NCBI GenBank assembly: GCA_016787295.1
Contig: JAEUUX010000261.1
Coordinates: forward strand, 1-44,411
Direction of reading: 5' to 3'
DNA: 44,411 bases
DNA from: Chitinophagales bacterium
GTDB lineage: Bacteria > Bacteroidota > Bacteroidia > Chitinophagales > UBA2359
The translations under genes were made by a program, and so were the position numbers. A model generated the notes under the pieces. The model worked only from the letters and a program-made list of their open reading frames with translations. It did no database searches and was not told the origin of the DNA. Of the stretch, positions 12,847 through 43,190 are shown piece by piece (position 1 is the stretch's first letter; every line of letters begins with the position of its first letter).

Positions 12847-12871
12847 TAATGCCGAGCTGTAATAAAAAAAT

Positions 12872-12905
12872 AACAGCCCATCTCTGCAAAAGAGGTGGGC
12901 TGTTT
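12872..12905. terminator. Bidirectional terminator between porQ and the LRR operon
   Basis: Strong stem AACAGCCCA-TCTCT / AGAGG-TGGGCTGTT with a short loop. It is flanked by an A-run on the left and TTTGTT on the right, and sits between two convergent genes. Confidence 0.8.
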
Positions 12906-12940: not shown

Positions 12941-15900
12941 CTACTCCTGCAACAAAGCCCGCACCCGCGCAAAATCGGGGTGGGTGATGCCTGCGGCTTC
13001 TAAGTCGGCAATGTCTTTTAAGAAAAGGTCATTATAATTGCGCTCATAAAATATATAAGTAAAGGATTTGCCTTTCCATTTTAGATAAATGGCTTTTGCT
13101 TGGGCGTATTGATTGTTGAGGAGATAACCCAAGGCTAAATAGCGTTCTACGCTTACTTGGGTACTGTCTAATGCAAGTGTTTTTTGTGCGGCTTGTATAG
13201 CTTCTTGGGGTTTGTTTACGAATAGGGCAGAATGGCTTAGTTCATACCAAGTCTTGTAATTGGCGCTATCCTGTTTAGTGTCTTGTAATTGTTTATTAAA
13301 CAAACCTATATAACCCCCATATTTTGCCTCTCCTTTAGCTAATTTGCTAAGGAAGGTTTTTAACTCATCGTCTTTTAATTCTTTGTTGTAAGGAAATAAG
13401 GCGTTGTCATTGTCCAAATTCAGTACTTTTAGGCTATTTAATTTACTAATATATTCTGGCATGTTAACAAATTGGTTATTGCCTAAATACAGCGTTTGCA
13501 AATTGTTTAATTTGGCAATGCCTTCGGGTATGTTATTAAATTGGTTATCGTTCAAATACAGTTCTTTTAGGTTATTTAATTTAATAATATCGTTTGGCAG
13601 GGCGTTTAATTGGTTATTACCTAAACCCAGTATTTGTAAATTGCTTAATCGTCCTATACTTTCGGGTAGGGCAATTAATTGGTTATTGTCTAAACTCAGC
13701 GATTGCAAATTGCTTAATTTTGTAATACTTTCGGGTAGAATATCTAATTTGTTGCCACCTAAACCGAGTATCTGTAAATTGCTTAATTGTCCTATACTTT
13801 CGGGTAGGGTTTTTAATTGGTTTATTCCCAAATATAATGTTTGCAATTTGCTTAATTGCCCAATACTTTCGGGCAGGGCAATTAACTTATTGAGACCTAA
13901 ACTTAGGTATTGTAAATTGCTTAATTGCCCAATACTTTCGGGTAGGGTAATTAACCGGTTAGTTCCAAAATAGTATCCGTCTAAAATCAGTTTTTGTAAA
14001 TTGCTTAATTTAGTAATACTTTCAGGTAGAGTATCTAATTTGTTAGCACTTAAATACAGTTCTCGCAAATTGCCTAGTTTAGTAATACTTTCAGGTAGGG
14101 CTTCTAATTTGTTATATTCTAAACTCAGCATCTGCAAATTGCTTAATTTGGTAATATTTTCAGATAGGATGCTTAGTTGGTTATAGTTTAAGTGCAATCC
14201 TTGTAAATTACTTAATTGTCCTATACTTTCGGGTAGGATGCTTAGTTGGTTACGGTTTAAATTCAACACTTGTAAATTGCTTAATTGTCCTATACTTTGG
14301 GGCAGGAAGTCTAATTCATTGCGTCTTAAATCCAACTCTTGCAAGTTATTTAATTGTCCTATACTTTCGGGTAGGGTTCTTAATTGATTATTCTCTAAAC
14401 TCAGCGTTCGTAAATTGCTTAATTGCCCTATACTTTGGGGTAGCACTTTTAATTGGTTGAAATCTAAACTTAGATATTGCAAGTTCCTTAATTGCCCTAT
14501 ACTTTGGGGTAGCACTTTTAATTGGTTGAAATCTAAACTTAGGTATTTCAAGTTCCTTAATTGCCCTATATTTTCGGGTAGCTCAATTAATTTGTTGTAG
14601 GGTAAAATCAATGTTTGTAAGTTACTTAATTTTTCAAAGTTTTTGGGTAACAATGTAATGTCTTTACCTGTTAAGTTTAATGTAATAATTTTAGTCCATA
14701 CAAGTGAATCGGGCAAAAACGATATTTTACCCCAATCTATGTTTATACTTGTTAAGTTGCTTAATTGCCCCATGCTTTGGGGAAGGTCTTTTAATTGGTT
14801 ACTGTATAAATTCAGTTCTTGCAAATTACGTAATTGCCCTATACTTTGGGGAAGGGTATCTAATCCGTTATAGCTTAAGTTCAGTTCTTGCAAATTGCTT
14901 AATTGTCCTATACTTTGGGGAAGTCCTTTTAATTGGTTATTGTCTAACATAAGTTTTTGCAAATTGCTTAATTGTCCTATACTTTGGGGAAGGGTATCTA
15001 ATCCGTTATAGCTTAAGTTCAGTGCTCGCAAATTATGTAATTGCCCTATGCTTTCGGGTAGAGTGTCTAATCCATTATATCTTAAGTCCAGTGTTTGTAA
15101 CTTGTTTAATTTCCCAATACTTTCGGGTAGCGTCTTTAATTTATTGGAGTTTAAATACAGCTCTTGCAAATTGCTTAATTTGGTAACACTTTCAGGTAGG
15201 GTGATGAATTCATTGCTCCATAAATTCAGTACTTGCAAGTTGGTCAGATTTTTTAAACTTTCGGGTAGCGTCTTTAATTTATTGGAGTTTAAATACAGCT
15301 TTTGCAAATTGCTTAATTTGGTAACACTTTCAGGTAGGGTGATGAATTCATTGCTCCATAAATTCAGTACTTGCAAGTTGGTCAGATTTTTTGAACTTTC
15401 GGGTAGCGTCTTTAATTTATTGGAGCTTAAATACAGCTTTTGCAAATTGCTTAATTTGGTAACACTTTCAGGTAGAGTGTCAAATTGGTTTTTAGATAAA
15501 TCCAATGTTTGCAAATTGCTTAACTGCTCCGTCCTTTCGGGTAGGGTACTTAATTGGTTGTCGTTTAACAATAATACTTTCAGTTGGGTGTTTTGGTATG
15601 TTTCTTCGGGTAAGACAGTTAGTTGTTGTCTGCTTAGGTCTAAGGCAGCTATGTCTGACTTTAAGTCTTTTGGGTTGTAGACTACGTGGTAGGTATTACC
15701 CAAGGTGTCTAATAAGCATTTAAGACAATCTTCACTTTCTATTTTAGCAAACCCCCTCTCATCGAACTGCTCTGCCCTTTTCCATTTTTCTAATTTTTCT
15801 ACCCTATCGCCGTTTTTGTCTATAAAGTAGAAATTATCGTCCTTAAAAGCCAATGCAAATCTATCCTCATAGAAATAAAAGGCATCTATGAGTTTTTGGG

Positions 15901-16396
15901 CTTTTTGTAGGGCGGTTTGGGTTTCTGCTTGGGCGCGTTTAGCTTGTGCCGCGCTGGTGTCGGCTTTTATTTTGGACTGTTGGGCTTTTTCGGCTTCTGT
16001 TTTGGCATTAGCTTCGGCTTTTCGGGCTTTTTCGGCTTCTGTTTTGGCATTAGCTTCGGCTTTTCGGGCTTTTTCGGCTTCTGTTTTGGCTAGTTTAGTA
16101 GCCTGTTGCGCGGCGGTGCGTTGTTTTTCTATTTCGGCTACCAATCGTTGTATTTTCAGATCGGGTTGTGGTGAGTTAATACCACATTCTTTGGCGGCTA
16201 TGGCAGCAGCTTGATAGTTGCGCAGTGCCTCGTAGTAGTTGTTTTTGGCAAAATTATCCTCTCCCTTGCACATTTGCTCTTCATAGCGCGAGCAGGTTTG
16301 GGCAATGTTTTGCGCCCTTAGTGGTGGGTTTGCAACGACACCTATCCATAGGGTTGCTGCTGCCAATTGGTATAAAATGATATTTATGGTTTGCAT
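12941..16396 (-). CDS. Giant leucine-rich-repeat protein (third gene of the SIR2-TIR/STAND/LRR operon)
   Basis: 1151 residues. An N-terminal hydrophobic stretch (MQTINIILYQLAAATLWIGVV...LRAQ) may be a signal peptide, although it lacks the usual early lysine/arginine. Residues 30-75 are TPR-like. Residues 85-165 form an alanine-rich coiled coil with repeats of AEANAKTEAEKARK. A short region with FYFIDKNGDRVEKL and FDERGFAKIES resembles WG-type repeats. About 33 leucine-rich repeats of 23 residues follow (consensus LSNLQxLxLxxNxLxxLPESIGQ, about residues 250-1010). A TPR-like C-terminus (YKTWYELSHSALFVNKPQEAI...) closes the protein. The start overlaps the STAND gene's end by 13 bases, implying translational coupling. 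LRR arrays usually bind protein ligands, so a sensor or recognition role is inferred. Some adjacent repeats are nearly identical at DNA level, showing recent expansion. Confidence 0.85.
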   Translation of the reverse strand: MQTINIILYQLAAATLWIGVVANPPLRAQNIAQTCSRYEEQMCKGEDNFAKNNYYEALRNYQAAAIAAKECGINSPQPDLKIQRLVAEIEKQRTAAQQATKLAKTEAEKARKAEANAKTEAEKARKAEANAKTEAEKAQQSKIKADTSAAQAKRAQAETQTALQKAQKLIDAFYFYEDRFALAFKDDNFYFIDKNGDRVEKLEKWKRAEQFDERGFAKIESEDCLKCLLDTLGNTYHVVYNPKDLKSDIAALDLSRQQLTVLPEETYQNTQLKVLLLNDNQLSTLPERTEQLSNLQTLDLSKNQFDTLPESVTKLSNLQKLYLSSNKLKTLPESSKNLTNLQVLNLWSNEFITLPESVTKLSNLQKLYLNSNKLKTLPESLKNLTNLQVLNLWSNEFITLPESVTKLSNLQELYLNSNKLKTLPESIGKLNKLQTLDLRYNGLDTLPESIGQLHNLRALNLSYNGLDTLPQSIGQLSNLQKLMLDNNQLKGLPQSIGQLSNLQELNLSYNGLDTLPQSIGQLRNLQELNLYSNQLKDLPQSMGQLSNLTSINIDWGKISFLPDSLVWTKIITLNLTGKDITLLPKNFEKLSNLQTLILPYNKLIELPENIGQLRNLKYLSLDFNQLKVLPQSIGQLRNLQYLSLDFNQLKVLPQSIGQLSNLRTLSLENNQLRTLPESIGQLNNLQELDLRRNELDFLPQSIGQLSNLQVLNLNRNQLSILPESIGQLSNLQGLHLNYNQLSILSENITKLSNLQMLSLEYNKLEALPESITKLGNLRELYLSANKLDTLPESITKLSNLQKLILDGYYFGTNRLITLPESIGQLSNLQYLSLGLNKLIALPESIGQLSKLQTLYLGINQLKTLPESIGQLSNLQILGLGGNKLDILPESITKLSNLQSLSLDNNQLIALPESIGRLSNLQILGLGNNQLNALPNDIIKLNNLKELYLNDNQFNNIPEGIAKLNNLQTLYLGNNQFVNMPEYISKLNSLKVLNLDNDNALFPYNKELKDDELKTFLSKLAKGEAKYGGYIGLFNKQLQDTKQDSANYKTWYELSHSALFVNKPQEAIQAAQKTLALDSTQVSVERYLALGYLLNNQYAQAKAIYLKWKGKSFTYIFYERNYNDLFLKDIADLEAAGITHPDFARVRALLQE
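15166..15441 (-). repeat. Recent 138-bp tandem duplication inside the LRR array
   Basis: A 138-bp block, two LRRs long, beginning GCAAATTGCTTAATTTGGTAACAC occurs at 15166 and 15304 and restarts at 15442. The two full copies differ at only a few positions by eye (for example TTAAACTTTC versus TTGAACTTTC). The length is a multiple of 69 bp, so the reading frame and repeat register are kept. Confidence 0.85.
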
Positions 16397-17991
16397 TGCT
16401 TTTGCATTTCTTTTTTGGTGGATAGGTATAGGCTATCTTGGGGGTATTGGCGCAGCGTGTCTAATACTTTTTGGTAGTTTTGGCAGGCATAGTCATTCTG
16501 TCCTAATTCATCGTAATTTTTGGCAACGGCGTATATTTTAGCTGCTACTGCTTGTCGTTGGGTCTTTATCAAATCCTTCAAGGTTTGTTCTGATTCCTGT
16601 TGTTTTACATAAGCAAACCATCCCGCCCCCACAGCCAACAAAGCCACTATTACGGCAATAGTAGTAAAGATATTGGCGCGGCGTTTAGCTTGTTCGGCTA
16701 CTATGCGCAGTTGTCTGTCTTTTTCGGCTTGTGCTTGTGCTTCGGCTGCTTTGCGATAGGCTTCGGCTTTTTCTTCAGCGAGGCGCATTTTTTCTTCGGC
16801 ATCGCGGCGCAGTTCGTAGGTGCTAATAATGGGCTTTAGTAGGGTGTCGTGGCTTATTTCGTAATACCACATATTGGAACTGGCTTCTTTGCGGCACAGC
16901 CGCTCGTTGGTCAGTTGGTCTATGTCGGCTTGGGTAAGTTGGTAGGTTTGTTTGAGGTACTCTTGTTCCAAAATAATACGCCTGCCATTGCTTATCAAGC
17001 CCTCTTCTATTAGTTGTTGCACATGTCGGCGGGTGTTGGCATTGGTATATTTTTGCAATACGCTGTTGTAAAATTCGCCGATGATTTGGCGTATACCTGG
17101 TGTGCCGCCATAAAAATCGGTGGTTACAGTAATAATGGGATAGGGTTCATGTGTTTTATCGGCATGGCTGGCTATAATTTTTTCTTCTATGCGCTGGCAC
17201 AACAATTGCAATTGAAAACCGCCCACTTCACGGCTTTGTGTGTGGATATTGGTTTGTTGCTCTTGGCTCAATTCGGTCATTATGTTTTGCAGGGCATCAA
17301 GGCTATAGCTAAATGTTGGGCTATCAAAACTGCCTTGCGCCAAAGCGGGCTGTTCAATGGCTTGTCGGGCATTGTCTATAGTAAGATCAGATAGCTCGTA
17401 GCGGGTGCTCAATATGGCAGGAATTTGGTCGCTAAGGCGGTCAAGCAAATACAAATAATCGGAACGGATAGAGATGAGGAAATGCGCTTTGGGTGGCGTG
17501 CTGCGGCGATGCCCTTCGGGTGCTGTGCCGTTCATCACTTGCGCCAATTGGTCAATAAATTGTTTTTGCTCTTCGGGACGGTCGGCATAGAGCGTAAACA
17601 ATTCCTCAAACTGGTCGAAAACATAGAGAGGCGTAAAACTTTCGCCCGCCTCGCTGTAGGCAAAGCGGTGGCAGTAGTCCCACAAACTTAGCTTGTCAGG
17701 CGTATTGTAGGGCAGGTATTCGCCCTGTTCCAGCAAGGCGTGTATCTGTTGTACTATGGGTTTGTCGGTTTGGTTGATGCGCAAAAAAACGGGATGCAAA
17801 CGCCTTTCGTGTAGCATGGGCGTTACACCTGCTTGTATTAGGGAGGTTTTGCCTGTTCCCGATTTGCCAAACAACACCACTATGGGTTGCAATACCGTCA
17901 AACGAAACAGTTCTTTGGTTTCGCGTTCTCTGCCAAAAAACAAATGGCGACGGTCGCGGTCATAAGATTGAATGCCCGGATAACGCTTCAT
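16384..17991 (-). CDS. STAND-type NTPase (nSTAND1-like) with one transmembrane helix
   Basis: A 535-residue signal-transducing NTPase. The start reads PGIQSY...HLFFGRERE, the usual opening of the nSTAND1 family. It is followed by Walker A GKSGTGKTS (42-50), Walker B PLYVFDQFEEL (D126) and ISIRSDYL with R176. The winged-helix region ends in YYEISHDTLL. A charged Ala/Glu coiled coil (395-438) leads into a single membrane helix, about residues 439-461 (RRANIFTTIAVIVALLAVGAGWFAYV broken here as family-typical). A TPR-like tail of about 75 residues (KIYAVAKNYDELGQ...) follows. Its stop overlaps the LRR start and its ATG overlaps the SIR2-TIR stop (ATGA). STAND ATPases work as switches that oligomerise on ligand detection. 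Here the switch should be cytoplasmic with a short tail across the membrane. Confidence 0.85.
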   Translation of the reverse strand: MKRYPGIQSYDRDRRHLFFGRERETKELFRLTVLQPIVVLFGKSGTGKTSLIQAGVTPMLHERRLHPVFLRINQTDKPIVQQIHALLEQGEYLPYNTPDKLSLWDYCHRFAYSEAGESFTPLYVFDQFEELFTLYADRPEEQKQFIDQLAQVMNGTAPEGHRRSTPPKAHFLISIRSDYLYLLDRLSDQIPAILSTRYELSDLTIDNARQAIEQPALAQGSFDSPTFSYSLDALQNIMTELSQEQQTNIHTQSREVGGFQLQLLCQRIEEKIIASHADKTHEPYPIITVTTDFYGGTPGIRQIIGEFYNSVLQKYTNANTRRHVQQLIEEGLISNGRRIILEQEYLKQTYQLTQADIDQLTNERLCRKEASSNMWYYEISHDTLLKPIISTYELRRDAEEKMRLAEEKAEAYRKAAEAQAQAEKDRQLRIVAEQAKRRANIFTTIAVIVALLAVGAGWFAYVKQQESEQTLKDLIKTQRQAVAAKIYAVAKNYDELGQNDYACQNYQKVLDTLRQYPQDSLYLSTKKEMQKQCKP

Positions 17992-19376
17992 GACAAAATG
18001 ATTTTAATGGGGTTTTTGATGCGGTCGATAATCGTTCGTATTTCTTTGGCGATGTCGGCTAAGGCAGCCTCGCGGTCGGGTTTTTCGCTCACTGCTTTGC
18101 CGCGCGGTTTGGGCAGCAGGGTGTTTAGGTCTTCAAAAACCGTGTCGTAGAGGTTGTAGGGAGTCATCAAAATAGGCACTAATTTGGCTTGTCCGTTTTC
18201 GTGGCGTTGCAAGGCAATTTGCAAGTCTTGTTCATACAAGCTATCAGAGTCCATAAAATTGGCTGTCACCAAAGGTACAATGATGTCGGCAGTTTGCAAA
18301 TGTTGGGCAATAGTCTGGTCATGGTCGTTGCCGCTCGATATTTTACCTTCATGCCATGTTTCAATCCAGCCGCCACCGCGCAAACTTGCCAAATGTTTCT
18401 CCAACTCTTCGAGCAAGGGTGTGTCGGCTTCGTGGTAGAGCAATAGCAGTTGCAAGGCATGGGCATTGTCCTTTTTGCTATTAGTGTTTTTTTTCAGTCG
18501 CCCGCCGAGTTCTGCCAAAAAAGATTCGCTTTGGTTGCCCGCAAACACCATATTGAAACTGTTGTCATAAAAAAAGCGAATTTCGCTATGAAGGTCATCG
18601 GCATTTTGGAGCGTAAAAGTCTGGGGCAGGTGTTCTTGGCTGCGGCGCAAAAGGTGCATCAACAGCCGCAAATGCCATTCATTGAAATCAAAACCCACAA
18701 ACAAATAGGTTTTGCGCATCCTGAAGCGCGGCTTATTGGTATAATAAAAAGCCAAATTAGGCGGCAAGCCTCCTTTATCGGTTTGCAGCACTTTTTCCAC
18801 AAATTGCAGGCGGTCGTCGTCGGTCAGCACTAAGGAGTCGGGTTGCGAATAGTGTCCTGTTAGGTTGTATAGCAACGGACGGTCAATGTCTATCACTTGG
18901 TCTAAATCTACTGCTTTGGCGTTGGCAGTGCTATTGTGTTCGGGTTTGAAAAAGTGGTAGAAGAAGAAATGTGGCACACGGTCTTTTTGTGCCAAGGCTT
19001 GTGCTGCCAAGTCGTCGGGGCTGGTGTTGATGATGTAGCGCAAAGGCAACTCGGCAAGCAAGCGATAAATCGGAATATCCATTGGCACAAATTCTTCGTA
19101 AAAAGACCTGAACATTCTGCCAATTTTTTCAAGCGCATTTGTGCGGTCGCCGCATTTGCTTTGGTACATCTTCACCAATTCAAACAGTTTGGCGGGGCAG
19201 TCGGTAGGCTCTACACCGTATTCACGCTGCAAGCTGCGAGCCATGCGTTTGGCTAATAATTGTGATAGCGGTTCGCCGTTGTAGGTAGCAGCATTGGGAC
19301 CGAGCAGCAATACGCATTCATTTTGCTGAATGGCATCGCATATATCGTTCCATTGGTCGTTGGTTAGAGACATCAT
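17988..19376 (-). CDS. SIR2-like/TIR double-domain protein, first gene of a STAND operon
   Basis: A 462-residue cytoplasmic protein. Residues 1-295 read as a SIR2-like NAD-binding domain: CVLLLGPNAA (21-30), YIINTSPDDL (114-123, matching the family's TTNYDDL), LYNLTGHYSQPDSLVLTDDD (169-188), and YLFVGFDFNEWHLRLL (224-239). Residues 307-455 read as a TIR domain: LQLLLLYHEADTPLLEELEKHL, GGWIETWHEGKISSG, DIIVPLVTANFMDSD, LYEQDLQIAL and AKLVPILM. Such domains cleave NAD+ in phage-defence systems. Two substitutions at expected catalytic positions are noted: the SIR2 LHG histidine is T173 with H175 two residues on, and the TIR glutamate position aligns to D384, with E382 nearby. A TAACTTTG box (19419-19426) lies 43 bases upstream with a TTG 17 bases further. 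It is the likely operon head. Confidence 0.85.
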   Translation of the reverse strand: MMSLTNDQWNDICDAIQQNECVLLLGPNAATYNGEPLSQLLAKRMARSLQREYGVEPTDCPAKLFELVKMYQSKCGDRTNALEKIGRMFRSFYEEFVPMDIPIYRLLAELPLRYIINTSPDDLAAQALAQKDRVPHFFFYHFFKPEHNSTANAKAVDLDQVIDIDRPLLYNLTGHYSQPDSLVLTDDDRLQFVEKVLQTDKGGLPPNLAFYYTNKPRFRMRKTYLFVGFDFNEWHLRLLMHLLRRSQEHLPQTFTLQNADDLHSEIRFFYDNSFNMVFAGNQSESFLAELGGRLKKNTNSKKDNAHALQLLLLYHEADTPLLEELEKHLASLRGGGWIETWHEGKISSGNDHDQTIAQHLQTADIIVPLVTANFMDSDSLYEQDLQIALQRHENGQAKLVPILMTPYNLYDTVFEDLNTLLPKPRGKAVSEKPDREAALADIAKEIRTIIDRIKNPIKIILS

Positions 19377-19637
19377 AGTGTTAATATTAAATTAAAGGCA
19401 ATTTGGTGATTTAAACTGCAAAGTTAGTTGTTTTTTTTATAGGCAAGTAGTTATTTTACTTTTCCTTAAAAGTTGTTGAGTTTTAGGCAAATTTGTTGAG
19501 TTATCTCCCTGCATTTTTCACATGTTGCATACCTTGGCTATTTATGTTCGACTCTTACAAGACAGATTCAGGTGTTTTTAAGACATTCGATGCTAAACAG
19601 TCTTTCACTTTAATCTTGTCGAGCAACGTTTTTCTGT

Positions 19638-24866: not shown

Positions 24867-25823
24867 ATGCGAAAAAAAACAGTTTCGTTGGTGCTGGGCA
24901 GCGGCGGCGCTCGTGGCATGGCACACATTGGCGTTATCGAAGAATTGGAGTCGCGCGGCTATGACATTCGCCATATTTCGGGTTCGTCTATGGGTGCCGT
25001 CGTAGGCGGTGTGTATGCGATGGGCAAAATGGATTTGCTCAAAAATCACCTTCTACAACAGACCAAAATGCGTGTGTTTCGCATGATGGACTTTGTTTTT
25101 ACCAACGAAGGACTTATCAAAGGCGAAAAAATTTATGACGAACTAAAACAATTAGTCGGCGATACCCTCATCGAATCTTTACCTATCCATTACACAGCAG
25201 TTGCTTGCGATTTGGAAACCAACCAAGAGGTGTGGTTCAATAAAGGCAGCGTATTGCAAGCCATGCGCGCCTCTGCTGCCATTCCCAACATCGTTGTACC
25301 TGCCCAAATTGGTGAAAGAAGACTCATTGACGGCGGCGTGGTCAATCCCACTCCCATAGAACCTATTTTGCACCACAAAGCCGATTTGATTATCGTTGTC
25401 AACCTCAATGCCACATTGCCCGATAACCAACACGCCGAAGGAACACACGAATGGGAACGCTCCACCAAAGCCAAATTGTTTGACAACAAATGGTTTGAAA
25501 GTCTGCCCGCGCTTAGTTTGGTGCGACAACGTGCCAACCATTTGGCTATTGTCTCAAAAGTGGTCGAAATCACTCAAAATCGCCTTACACACTACGCCAT
25601 GATGCTCCACAAACCCGATATTTTGATTAATATCGCCCGAAAAAGTTGTCCGCCTTATGCTTTCTACAAAGCCGCCGAACAAATTGCCCTCGGCAAACGA
25701 GCTTGTGCTTATGCCTTAGACAACTATGAAAAAGACCTGCAACACCCCAACACTTTCACACACATCAAAGATTCGCTATACGATTTTGTGGCGTACCAAA
25801 TCAATCATTGGCGCGGAAAATAG
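24867..25823 (+). CDS. Patatin-like phospholipase
   Basis: The 318-residue protein has all patatin motifs: the glycine-rich oxyanion loop GSGGARGMAH (11-20), the nucleophile elbow GSSMG with catalytic serine (near residue 41), and the dyad aspartate in DGGVVNPTPI (near residue 150). No signal peptide is present, so it is likely cytoplasmic or peripherally membrane-bound. It belongs to the RssA/NTE-like bacterial group of serine acyl hydrolases acting on phospholipids. Patatins are effectors in some CBASS defence systems, but no cyclase gene is nearby, so a housekeeping or unknown role is more likely. Confidence 0.9.
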   Translation: MRKKTVSLVLGSGGARGMAHIGVIEELESRGYDIRHISGSSMGAVVGGVYAMGKMDLLKNHLLQQTKMRVFRMMDFVFTNEGLIKGEKIYDELKQLVGDTLIESLPIHYTAVACDLETNQEVWFNKGSVLQAMRASAAIPNIVVPAQIGERRLIDGGVVNPTPIEPILHHKADLIIVVNLNATLPDNQHAEGTHEWERSTKAKLFDNKWFESLPALSLVRQRANHLAIVSKVVEITQNRLTHYAMMLHKPDILINIARKSCPPYAFYKAAEQIALGKRACAYALDNYEKDLQHPNTFTHIKDSLYDFVAYQINHWRGK

Positions 25824-40389: not shown

Positions 40390-42156
40390 ATGCAGATAAA
40401 CTGGACAAACATTAAAGCCGAAATTTTGGCAGAAACGAAAGATATTTTACAAACAGAACCAAATTTTAACGCAGATGAAGTTTTGGATTTGTTCGTAAAA
40501 GTTATTGAAAAAAAGCAACTTACAGAATTCAAAGGGGCTTTACCTTTTCCTACTGAAAATCATACAGGCATTCAACTTAAAACAGCACGCGCTACCTTGG
40601 CAGTAAAGTTTGAAACCTACCTCAAAAGTATTTATGAGTTACTTTCTATTGAAATAGAAGGTGAATTGAAAGTGTGTTTGGTTGATTTTTTTAAAAGATT
40701 TAGTTTATTGCAGCCAAACAGAGATAGTTTTATGTTTTTTGATAAAGATGACCAAACTCTTGTCTCTCTCTATCCTGCTGTCTATTTTCAAGGTAAAATG
40801 CCTTTTGGCAAAGAACTAAAAATGGCTTATGATTTAAGAAATGCCATTGCACACAAAGGAAAATTGTATGGAAATATAGAGCCATCCAATAATTTAGAAA
40901 CTGTTATTTCTGATATAAAGGATTTTGTAATTGCTATGTTATTTATCACTCGCCAATTTAAAAAGGAACTTATCCCTATTCTTAATCCCAATGATTTAAC
41001 CGACTACTTGCAAAAACAAAGACAACTTTTCAAAGTTTGGCAAAGTCGTTTTGTGCATATTGAAGGCAGAGAAGAATTTGCAGAAGTAGAATTGTATGCC
41101 AAAGAAGTTCTTGAAGATACAGAAGAAACCAATGAAGATGACGAAAATTTTGAAGATATAAAAGTAGCAAGAGAAGGCAAAATAGATGAATTGCGTAAAA
41201 GGATTACCGAGAAGCAAATGGTAATTTTGGGCGAAGTAGGTATGGGAAAAAGTACGACTTTGCAATATTTGCATTTCAAAGATGCCCAAAGTGCCTTGCA
41301 AAACAAGCACTTGCCTATTCCTATCTATTTTGAATTGAAAAACCTAACAGACAAAGACAACCTGTTACAAAAAATCATTGACCGAATAGGCAAAGACCAA
41401 GATTTTACTATAGAAATGCTTAAAAAAGGCAGATTTTCTATTTGCTTAGACGGTTTGAATGAAATTGAGAAAAACATAAAGGCAAAAGTTTTTACCCAAA
41501 TCAAAAACTTAATTTCAGACTATCCAAATAACTTTTATCTAATAACAAGCAGACCGCAAGGCTATAATCGTGAATTTGATGATGTATTGCAAAATAGGAA
41601 TACCCCCGTTTTTGTCTTGCAAAAAATGGAAAACAAGCAAATCAGCGAGTTTTTAGAAAAAAATGGCAAAAAGGTAAAAGACTATATTCAGGCAGAAATT
41701 GATACCAACGACCGACTGCGAAAAATTGTGCAAACGCCTTTAATGCTTTTGATGCTCATTGCAGTGGTGGAGAAAGAAGGTAAAATCCCCACAAATAAAG
41801 CATTAATGATTGCTAAATTTATGCATAGTTTGTACGACAGAGAGCAAAAGCAAATCATTGATTTTGACAAAGATACCTGTCATTTATTACTCTGTTATTT
41901 GGGTTACCAAACAAGAGATTTAACAGGCTCAAATTCGGGTTTGGACAGAGAAGAATACATTTTGCCTATTTTGGAAGAACGCAAAAAGCAATTGGGCTTA
42001 CCTGTCAATCTTTTAGATTTCTTACGCAAAGCATTGGATTTGAACATTTTAGTCAATGACGATAACCAATACAGTTTTACACACGAACAATATCAGGAAT
42101 ATTACGCAGCCGATTTTTTGATGCAATTTAAAAAATTACAAAAAAATGAAAAATAA
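40390..42156 (+). CDS. HEPN-NACHT NTPase, C-terminally truncated by insertion of a nuclease gene
   Basis: 588 residues. The first 200 look HEPN-like, with the RxxxxH ribonuclease motif in YDLRNAIAHKG (R150, H155). The NACHT NTPase follows: Walker A GEVGMGKSTT (281-290), Walker B FSICLDGLNEIE (D354) and LITSRPQGYN (sensor R388). The helical arm ends in YSFTHEQYQEYYAADFL. NACHT proteins of this kind normally continue for hundreds of residues beyond that point. Here the frame ends ...QFKKLQKNEK at 42156, and the expected continuation (HQNDPTWAEVIRLYSGLFD) appears about 1 kb further on, after a DUF1016 gene. Bacterial NACHT proteins protect against phage, and a HEPN effector would act by RNA cleavage. 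It has likely lost its C-terminal sensor. Confidence 0.85.
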   Translation: MQINWTNIKAEILAETKDILQTEPNFNADEVLDLFVKVIEKKQLTEFKGALPFPTENHTGIQLKTARATLAVKFETYLKSIYELLSIEIEGELKVCLVDFFKRFSLLQPNRDSFMFFDKDDQTLVSLYPAVYFQGKMPFGKELKMAYDLRNAIAHKGKLYGNIEPSNNLETVISDIKDFVIAMLFITRQFKKELIPILNPNDLTDYLQKQRQLFKVWQSRFVHIEGREEFAEVELYAKEVLEDTEETNEDDENFEDIKVAREGKIDELRKRITEKQMVILGEVGMGKSTTLQYLHFKDAQSALQNKHLPIPIYFELKNLTDKDNLLQKIIDRIGKDQDFTIEMLKKGRFSICLDGLNEIEKNIKAKVFTQIKNLISDYPNNFYLITSRPQGYNREFDDVLQNRNTPVFVLQKMENKQISEFLEKNGKKVKDYIQAEIDTNDRLRKIVQTPLMLLMLIAVVEKEGKIPTNKALMIAKFMHSLYDREQKQIIDFDKDTCHLLLCYLGYQTRDLTGSNSGLDREEYILPILEERKKQLGLPVNLLDFLRKALDLNILVNDDNQYSFTHEQYQEYYAADFLMQFKKLQKNEK

Positions 42157-43190
42157 GGACTATCAGCATTTATTGGAAACCATCACTTCCTTGATAGAAC
42201 AAGCACGCACCAAAACCTTGATACAAGTCAATCGCGAGTTGTTGTTTTTGTATTGGAGCATTGGTAAAAACATTTTAGAAAAGCAAGAAGAACAAGGTTG
42301 GGGGGCGAAAATTATAGATAATCTTGCCAAAGACTTAACCCAAAACTATCCTGATAGTAAAGGTTTTTCGTTGCGAAACCTCAAGAATATGCAGAAATTC
42401 GCCAAAGCCTATCCCAATTTTGAAATTGTGCAGACAGTGTCTGCACAATTAAGTTGGTCACATCATGTCCTTATATTGGATAAATTTAAAGAGGAAAAAT
42501 TGCGTTTGTGGTATTTGCTCAAATCTGCCGAGCAAGGTTGGTCTTATCGGGTTTTACTCAACCAAATAGATACACAAATACACACTCAATTGGGTACTTT
42601 ACCTAATAACTTTAAAAGCTATTTGCCACAACCACAGTCCGAATTGGTGCAACAACTTTTCAAAGATGAATATATTTTTGATTTTATTGCCCAAGATGAA
42701 AAACGCAAAGAAAAGGACTTTGAGAAAGAAATTATCCAAAATATTACCGATTTTTTGTTGGCATTGGGCAAGGGTTTTTCCTACATAGGCAAGCAATATC
42801 ATTTGGAAATAGGCGGACAAGATTTTTACATAGATTTGTTGTTTTATCATTTCAAACTCAAATGTTTTATTGTCATAGAACTCAAAATAGATGATTTCAA
42901 ACCTGAATACGTAGGCAAATTGAATTTCTATTTGTCGGTTGTTGATGATTTGCTCAAACAAGACAATGACCAAGCAAGCATCGGTTTGCTGCTTTGCCGA
43001 AACAAAAACAATACAGTAGTAGAATATGCCCTACGTGATGTAAGCAAGCCGATGGGTGTGGCTTCCTACAAACTGACCAAGCAAATTCCTGAAAACTTGA
43101 AAAGCAACTTGCCTACCGAACAAGAACTAAAAGCCATTTTAGATAAGATAAACACAAAGCAAAACAATGGATAAAGATTTATTACAAAAA
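42135..43190 (+). other. Candidate inserted segment bounded by 10-bp direct repeats
   Basis: ATTACAAAAA occurs at 42135-42144 and 43181-43190. Joining the sequences across one copy removes 1046 bases holding the DUF1016 gene. It fuses ...FKKLQK to HQNDPTW... in frame with the upstream NACHT gene. No transposase or terminal inverted repeat is seen. Confidence 0.55.
42146..43174 (+). CDS. DUF1016 (YhcG-like) PDDEXK nuclease
   Basis: A 342-residue protein. The N-terminal DUF1016 helical region has ETITSLIEQARTKTLIQVNRELL, YWSIGKNILEKQEEQGWG and GFSLRNLKNMQKFAKAYP. The C-terminal PDDEXK core has GGQDFYIDLLFYH (D230) and CFIVIELKI (E245, K247). All expected catalytic residues are present, so DNA cleavage is plausible. 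Such genes often sit with restriction-modification or other mobile loci. Its ATG overlaps the end of the NACHT frame by 11 bases. Its stop overlaps a start-like ATG (43167) of the displaced NACHT fragment. Base composition is slightly richer in GC than the neighbouring cold-shock-domain gene. It looks like an insertion into the NACHT gene. Confidence 0.85.
   Translation: MKNKDYQHLLETITSLIEQARTKTLIQVNRELLFLYWSIGKNILEKQEEQGWGAKIIDNLAKDLTQNYPDSKGFSLRNLKNMQKFAKAYPNFEIVQTVSAQLSWSHHVLILDKFKEEKLRLWYLLKSAEQGWSYRVLLNQIDTQIHTQLGTLPNNFKSYLPQPQSELVQQLFKDEYIFDFIAQDEKRKEKDFEKEIIQNITDFLLALGKGFSYIGKQYHLEIGGQDFYIDLLFYHFKLKCFIVIELKIDDFKPEYVGKLNFYLSVVDDLLKQDNDQASIGLLLCRNKNNTVVEYALRDVSKPMGVASYKLTKQIPENLKSNLPTEQELKAILDKINTKQNNG

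Follow-up and report, generated by a model that had tools for sequence, protein, structure and literature searches.

How three overlapping genes that bring together a SIR2-TIR protein, a STAND NTPase and a leucine-rich repeat (LRR) protein might work as one system is the question raised by a stretch of DNA from a Chitinophagales bacterium (assembly GCA_016787295.1, contig JAEUUX010000261.1, positions 1 to 44,411 of the forward strand; this whole stretch of 44,411 nucleotides (nt) is called the window here). An earlier note, made from the letters alone, had described a split NLR-like operon that could sense ligands outside the cytoplasm and trigger NAD+ consumption inside. In our best reading, the three genes would encode a new, membrane-spanning variant of the EAD/STAND conflict systems. 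We hold, with rather more confidence than doubt, that their products form a membrane-spanning receptor complex of this kind with a catalytically degenerate SIR2-TIR protein as its hub. The three genes are as follows.

17988..19376, minus strand: first gene, SIR2-TIR protein of 462 amino acids (SIR2_2, 1.4e-11; TIR_2, 9.5e-9)
16384..17991, minus strand: second gene, nSTAND1 NTPase with one transmembrane (TM) helix, 535 amino acids (PF20703, 1.3e-35)
12941..16396, minus strand: third gene, LRR protein, predicted exported, 1151 amino acids (LRR_8, 1.1e-107)

The first two genes overlap by 4 nt and the last two by 13 nt, which agrees with the earlier note, as does the count of 33 repeats in the LRR protein. 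A scan with one genome per species gave 36 further loci (numbered with an L below), mostly in metagenome-assembled genomes of Saprospiraceae and also in Chitinophaga, Fibrella and Spirosoma. The STAND gene is on the same strand in 29 loci, counting the window, and in 25 of these 29 no more than about 110 nt separate it from the SIR2 gene, with 20 pairs overlapping; these linkage counts are lower bounds, since the SIR2 frames of L066, L072 and L076 escaped ORF (open reading frame) calling. The neighbourhood is beyond chance and recurs in dozens of genomes; its absence had been named beforehand as a finding that would speak against the system. The genome of the window contains a second SIR2-TIR gene, and an nSTAND1-TM-WD40 gene lies about 7 kb away from it. 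In L057, L058, L062 and L074, the SIR2-TIR gene has no STAND gene next to it, and several of these SIR2-TIR genes adjoin the same conserved genes.

The sensor of this system is exchanged from locus to locus, in the type of repeat as well as in its attachment. On the one hand, it is a separate exported protein, with LRRs in the window and in L093, L094, L096, L097 and L098, WD40 repeats in L046, L049, L050 and L051, and WG repeats in L045. On the other hand, it is fused behind the TM helix as WD40 (L011, L044, L047, L060, L072), TPR (L056) or LRR (L099) repeats. The coiled-coil-WG-LRR module of the window recurs in two loci, L099 and the decayed L034, where it comes directly after the STAND TM helix. 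Since the LRRs follow a TM helix in the fused form and a signal peptide in the split form, they are predicted to lie outside the cytoplasm in both. The fused STAND-TM-LRR relative is a link between the split form of the window and a one-protein form. The split LRR state requires four changes on the STAND tree, at least two of them forced by well-supported branches, so that it has at least two origins there; the window STAND is a long branch whose own placement is unsettled. Two of these loci have peculiar arrangements. L034 (9816-11200) consists of a SIR2 fragment followed by a fusion of STAND tail, TM helix, WG and LRR, with most of the NTPase missing. L093 (7914-12868) has one STAND gene followed by three tandem exported LRR genes, and an unmatched protein of 448 amino acids in the adaptor position.

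The STAND protein of the window is the predicted membrane-crossing component. It scores 124.2 bits against the curated nSTAND1 (PF20703) cut-off of 27.1 and carries both a Walker A motif (GKSGTGKT, at residue 42) and a Walker B motif (VFDQFEE). Its AlphaFold2 (AF2) model has a predicted local distance difference test (pLDDT) score of 82.8 and resembles ORC/Cdc6, NLRP and Apaf-1. The model draws a single helix through the membrane segment, and its pLDDT drops to 45-65 beyond about residue 450.

16615..16671, minus strand: TM helix, residues 441-459, within one predicted continuous helix 382-494 (hydrophobicity and AF2)

The earlier note had placed this helix at residues 439-461. One hydrophobic helix follows the NTPase in 25 of the 29 STAND partners; of the rest, three are truncated, and L048 has a helix just under the threshold and is not taken to lack one. 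Lysine and arginine are richer on the N side of the helix in all 25 STANDs scored (mean 7.0 versus 3.3 in 20 residues). Accordingly, the STAND protein is predicted to have its N-terminus inside and its C-terminus outside.

The third gene would supply the outer part of the complex. Its features are listed from the N-terminus.

16313..16396, minus strand: predicted signal peptide, about residues 1-28 (heuristic, no SignalP)
15659..16312, minus strand: TPR-like, coiled-coil and WG-like linker region, its coiled-coil/WG part common to the fused STAND-TM-LRR relatives
13364..15652, minus strand: 33 LRRs (residues 249-1011), most of them keeping a strict register of 23 residues (repeat count)

The N-terminus of the LRR protein is signal-peptide-like (MQTINIILYQLAAATLWIGVVA...), which bears out the suggestion that this protein may be exported. 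By the same heuristic, a signal peptide is found in 18 of the 19 separate sensor genes versus 135 of 455 other ORFs of the same loci, a background set that is partly made of spurious ORFs (Fisher p about 1e-8); the nineteenth sensor is signal-peptide-like too, with a proline inside its hydrophobic stretch. Because the sensors are either fused behind a TM helix or separate with a signal peptide, they are probably extracytoplasmic. The exported, membrane-spanning reading of the window system is well supported, and with it the part of the earlier proposal that placed sensing outside the cytoplasm. Within the LRR array there are tandem duplications of 138 bp whose identity reaches 98-100%. The positions that vary within the repeat (3, 5, 7, 8 and 12) are its exposed ones. 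A relation of the third gene to type III effectors such as XopAE, suggested by NCBIfam, was rejected, with all matches below cut-off and reflecting generic LRR similarity.

The SIR2-TIR protein, the predicted cytoplasmic component, consists of two domains.

18492..19376, minus strand: SIR2-like domain, residues 1-295 (profile alignment to ThsA; alignment of 37 members)
18012..18458, minus strand: TIR-like domain, residues 307-455, with Asp384 at the catalytic Glu site (structure match and alignments)

In the AF2 model of this protein (pLDDT 83.6), the SIR2 part matches KomC (Z 21.8), ThsA, DSR2 and Avs5 with Z scores of about 17-22, and thus has the fold of the SIR2 NADases ThsA, DSR2 and Avs5; the TIR part matches bacterial and plant TIR structures. 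As for the catalytic pair of the SIR2 NADases, the Asn and the His of the HG motif, both residues are missing in the window, where the profile alignment to ThsA puts Ser119 at the Asn position and Thr173 at the His position (ThsA His152). The His is absent in all 37 members of the family, the Asn is present in nine and missing in 28, the window included, and the GxG loop is altered to GP in most. The catalytic Glu of the TIR domain corresponds to E74 of Cat1, an active-site position among those probed with alanine mutants (PMC12162218). It is Asp384 in the window, so that the window TIR does not have the residue of TIR NADases, and Glu is found in only one of 30 TIR-bearing relatives (L048). 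The SIR2-TIR protein seems, from its alignments, to be a dead-enzyme-like protein that has lost its active site, and the NAD+ consumption proposed in the earlier note is unsupported. The gene order of L048 (7995-11299) is reversed, with STAND before SIR2-TIR.

What the TIR domain may do instead is suggested by the domains that take its place. The SIR2 protein ends in EAD11 in L094, L098 and L099, where the window has TIR, and it starts with EAD1 in Chitinophaga, Fibrella and Spirosoma (by Pfam in the two that were scanned, by alignment in the third). In these three genera, a trypsin gene adjoining EAD1-SIR2 starts with a homologous EAD1-like domain (E about 1e-9). Genomes with EAD11-type loci have 3 to 27 copies of EAD11, and among the copies sampled the fusion partners are CHAT, caspase, phosphorylase and NB-ARC and, in one SIR2-TIR genome, trypsin. 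The sharing of an adaptor domain by core protein and effectors is the "EAD principle" of PMC8195603. Since EAD adaptor domains occupy the position of TIR in relatives, the window TIR is most likely an adaptor, and it would probably recruit effectors in trans rather than act as a catalyst. Such sharing is seen for the EAD1 and EAD11 relatives; for the window there is only a multi-copy set of TIR proteins in its genome, putative partners at most, over a dozen besides its own, with fusions that include FGE, HATPase, CHAT, NACHT and LRR-Roc-COR. Two LRR-Roc-COR-TIR proteins of this genome (C7 and C88; L020 and L023) have TIR domains related to that of the window.

Taken as a receptor complex, the system could work in the following way. 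The exported LRR protein would be located in the periplasm, where it would read a ligand and engage the short tail that nSTAND1 is predicted to have on this side of the membrane; the long nSTAND1 helix would cross the membrane and link this tail with the NTPase. STAND would then oligomerise in an NTP-dependent manner and cluster the SIR2-TIR protein in the cytoplasm. The SIR2 fold of this hub may bind or scaffold, and its TIR domain would serve as a homotypic adaptor for effectors that have a TIR domain and are encoded at other sites of the genome, possibly in the service of immunity. More tentatively, as something possible rather than probable, we consider a bacterial transmembrane pattern-recognition receptor with an exchangeable exported sensor (LRR, WD40, WG or TPR), a membrane-crossing STAND and a dead-enzyme SIR2 hub whose TIR or EAD recruits death effectors, Toll/MyD88-like in its working with an NLR-type switch. 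If this is true, threats would be detected before they reach the cytoplasm; the bacterial STAND (NLR-like) defences in the part of the literature covered sense phage proteins inside the cell. Bacteria would then have an outward-facing Toll-like arm in which both the repeats and the inner adaptors can be exchanged, and SIR2 and TIR folds would serve as scaffolds, not as NAD+ hydrolases. NADase activity is not to be concluded from a SIR2 or TIR annotation by itself.

Several points weigh against a complex of exported sensor, STAND switch and inactive hub. The n-region of the window signal peptide has neither Lys nor Arg, and the background of the signal-peptide comparison consists in part of spurious ORFs. 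PaAvs5-1 is active with NG in place of HG and requires its Asn (PMC12931631), so that a missing His alone is not proof of inactivity; some relatives keep the SIR2 Asn, and Asp384 of the window TIR might retain activity. No TIR effector adjoins the window operon, and recruitment in trans is therefore a conjecture.

Apart from its function, the transcription of the three genes was considered from two elements found by eye.

19419..19446, minus strand: Bacteroidota-type promoter TTG-N17-TAACTTTG, upstream of the first gene (by eye)
12861..12904, minus strand: hairpin and T-run, terminator-like, after the last gene (by eye)

Because the promoter motif precedes the first gene and the hairpin with its T-run follows the last, the three genes are read as a single operon; a sigma-70 scan gave no excess of sites (16 observed versus 17.3 expected). 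The flanks of this operon bear on whether the system is devoted to immunity at all. An extracytoplasmic receptor for envelope stress, polysaccharide or kin cells, in which STAND controls development or expression, would agree with the housekeeping-like character of the neighbours (on one side the small chain of a ribonucleotide reductase, on the other, somewhat farther off, an MraY-like glycosyltransferase) and the lack of a defence island. It would also agree with the loci that retain SIR2-TIR alone and with PADLOC, which gave only partial matches on the window (a ThsB-like TIR and a weak ThsA) and no whole system. We regard such a receptor as unlikely, considering that all components come from families typical of conflict systems, that related adaptors go together with effectors of the protease and caspase kinds, and that the sensor repeats duplicate rapidly.

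It is a little harder still to accept that the extracytoplasmic LRR protein triggers NAD+ depletion or signalling of the cyclic ADP-ribose type by SIR2-TIR itself, as an effector like those of Thoeris or Avs5. In its favour, both folds are closest to known NADases, the residue at the TIR Glu site of the window is still acidic (Asp384), the Glu itself is retained in L048, and the His-less Avs5 is active. Against this stand the residue losses described above, family-wide for the SIR2 His and nearly so for the TIR Glu, with the Asn missing and the GxG loop altered in most members, and the replacement of the TIR slot by non-enzymatic EADs in relatives. That the LRR gene is merely an independent neighbour of a separate SIR2-TIR/STAND system is very improbable, for although several loci (the short-tail group) have the pair without a third gene, the STAND and LRR genes overlap by 13 nt, exported LRR, WD40 or WG genes repeatedly lie beside short-tailed STAND genes, and the same module is fused to STAND in L099 and L034.

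Elsewhere in the window, a NACHT STAND protein (588 amino acids) and a YhcG/DUF1016 PDDEXK nuclease are encoded by genes with an 11-nt overlap (40390-43174), a possible second conflict pair, and a patatin-like phospholipase gene lies at 24867-25823.

In comparison with known systems, no description of the three-gene layout was found in the open-licence literature, in line with the remark of the earlier note that it did not recognise the layout as characterised. With Thoeris, the window shares the TIR fold and a SIR2 domain closest to ThsA by profile. Whereas Thoeris has ThsA (SIR2-SLOG) and a separate ThsB TIR, the window has SIR2 and TIR in one chain with no SLOG match, lacks the catalytic residues, and adds STAND and an exported sensor. 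Avs5 (AVAST type 5; PMC12931631) likewise combines a SIR2-like domain, a STAND NTPase and a sensor, but in one polypeptide, with SIR2 fused N-terminal to STAND and an essential Asn; the window has separate overlapping genes, a TM helix and an exported sensor, and has lost the Asn. The likeness to plant TIR-NBS-LRR receptors drawn in the earlier note stands as far as the three modules, TIR, a STAND-type NTPase and LRR, are present in one system, and is otherwise loose: the modules are on three polypeptides, TIR is separate from the NTPase, which is nSTAND1 rather than NB-ARC, and the LRR is predicted outside the cytoplasm. Animal Toll-like receptors with MyD88 have LRRs outside, a single TM segment and a TIR adaptor inside. 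Their working logic is alike by analogy only, with no homology of the whole, and in the window the STAND NTPase carries the TM helix while the LRR is a separate protein. Among the STAND-linked sensors diversified by diversity-generating retroelements, some are predicted to be periplasmic; as described in the accessible text of PMC10907252, these are C-type-lectin sensors diversified by reverse transcriptase, and no SIR2-TIR or exported LRR partner is described there. The closest relation is to the EAD/STAND conflict systems of Kaur et al. (2020, PMC7159879; 2021, PMC8195603), the work in which nSTAND1 is named. As far as the accessible text of both papers goes, these systems have a STAND NTPase, variable superstructure repeats and adaptors shared with effectors, and the membrane-spanning layout does not appear there. 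The window has the same STAND switch and repeat sensor. It and its relatives differ in an NTPase that is predicted to cross the membrane, in a sensor that many of the loci encode as a protein of its own, predicted to be exported, and in having a SIR2-like hub without the His as the partner that stays the same.
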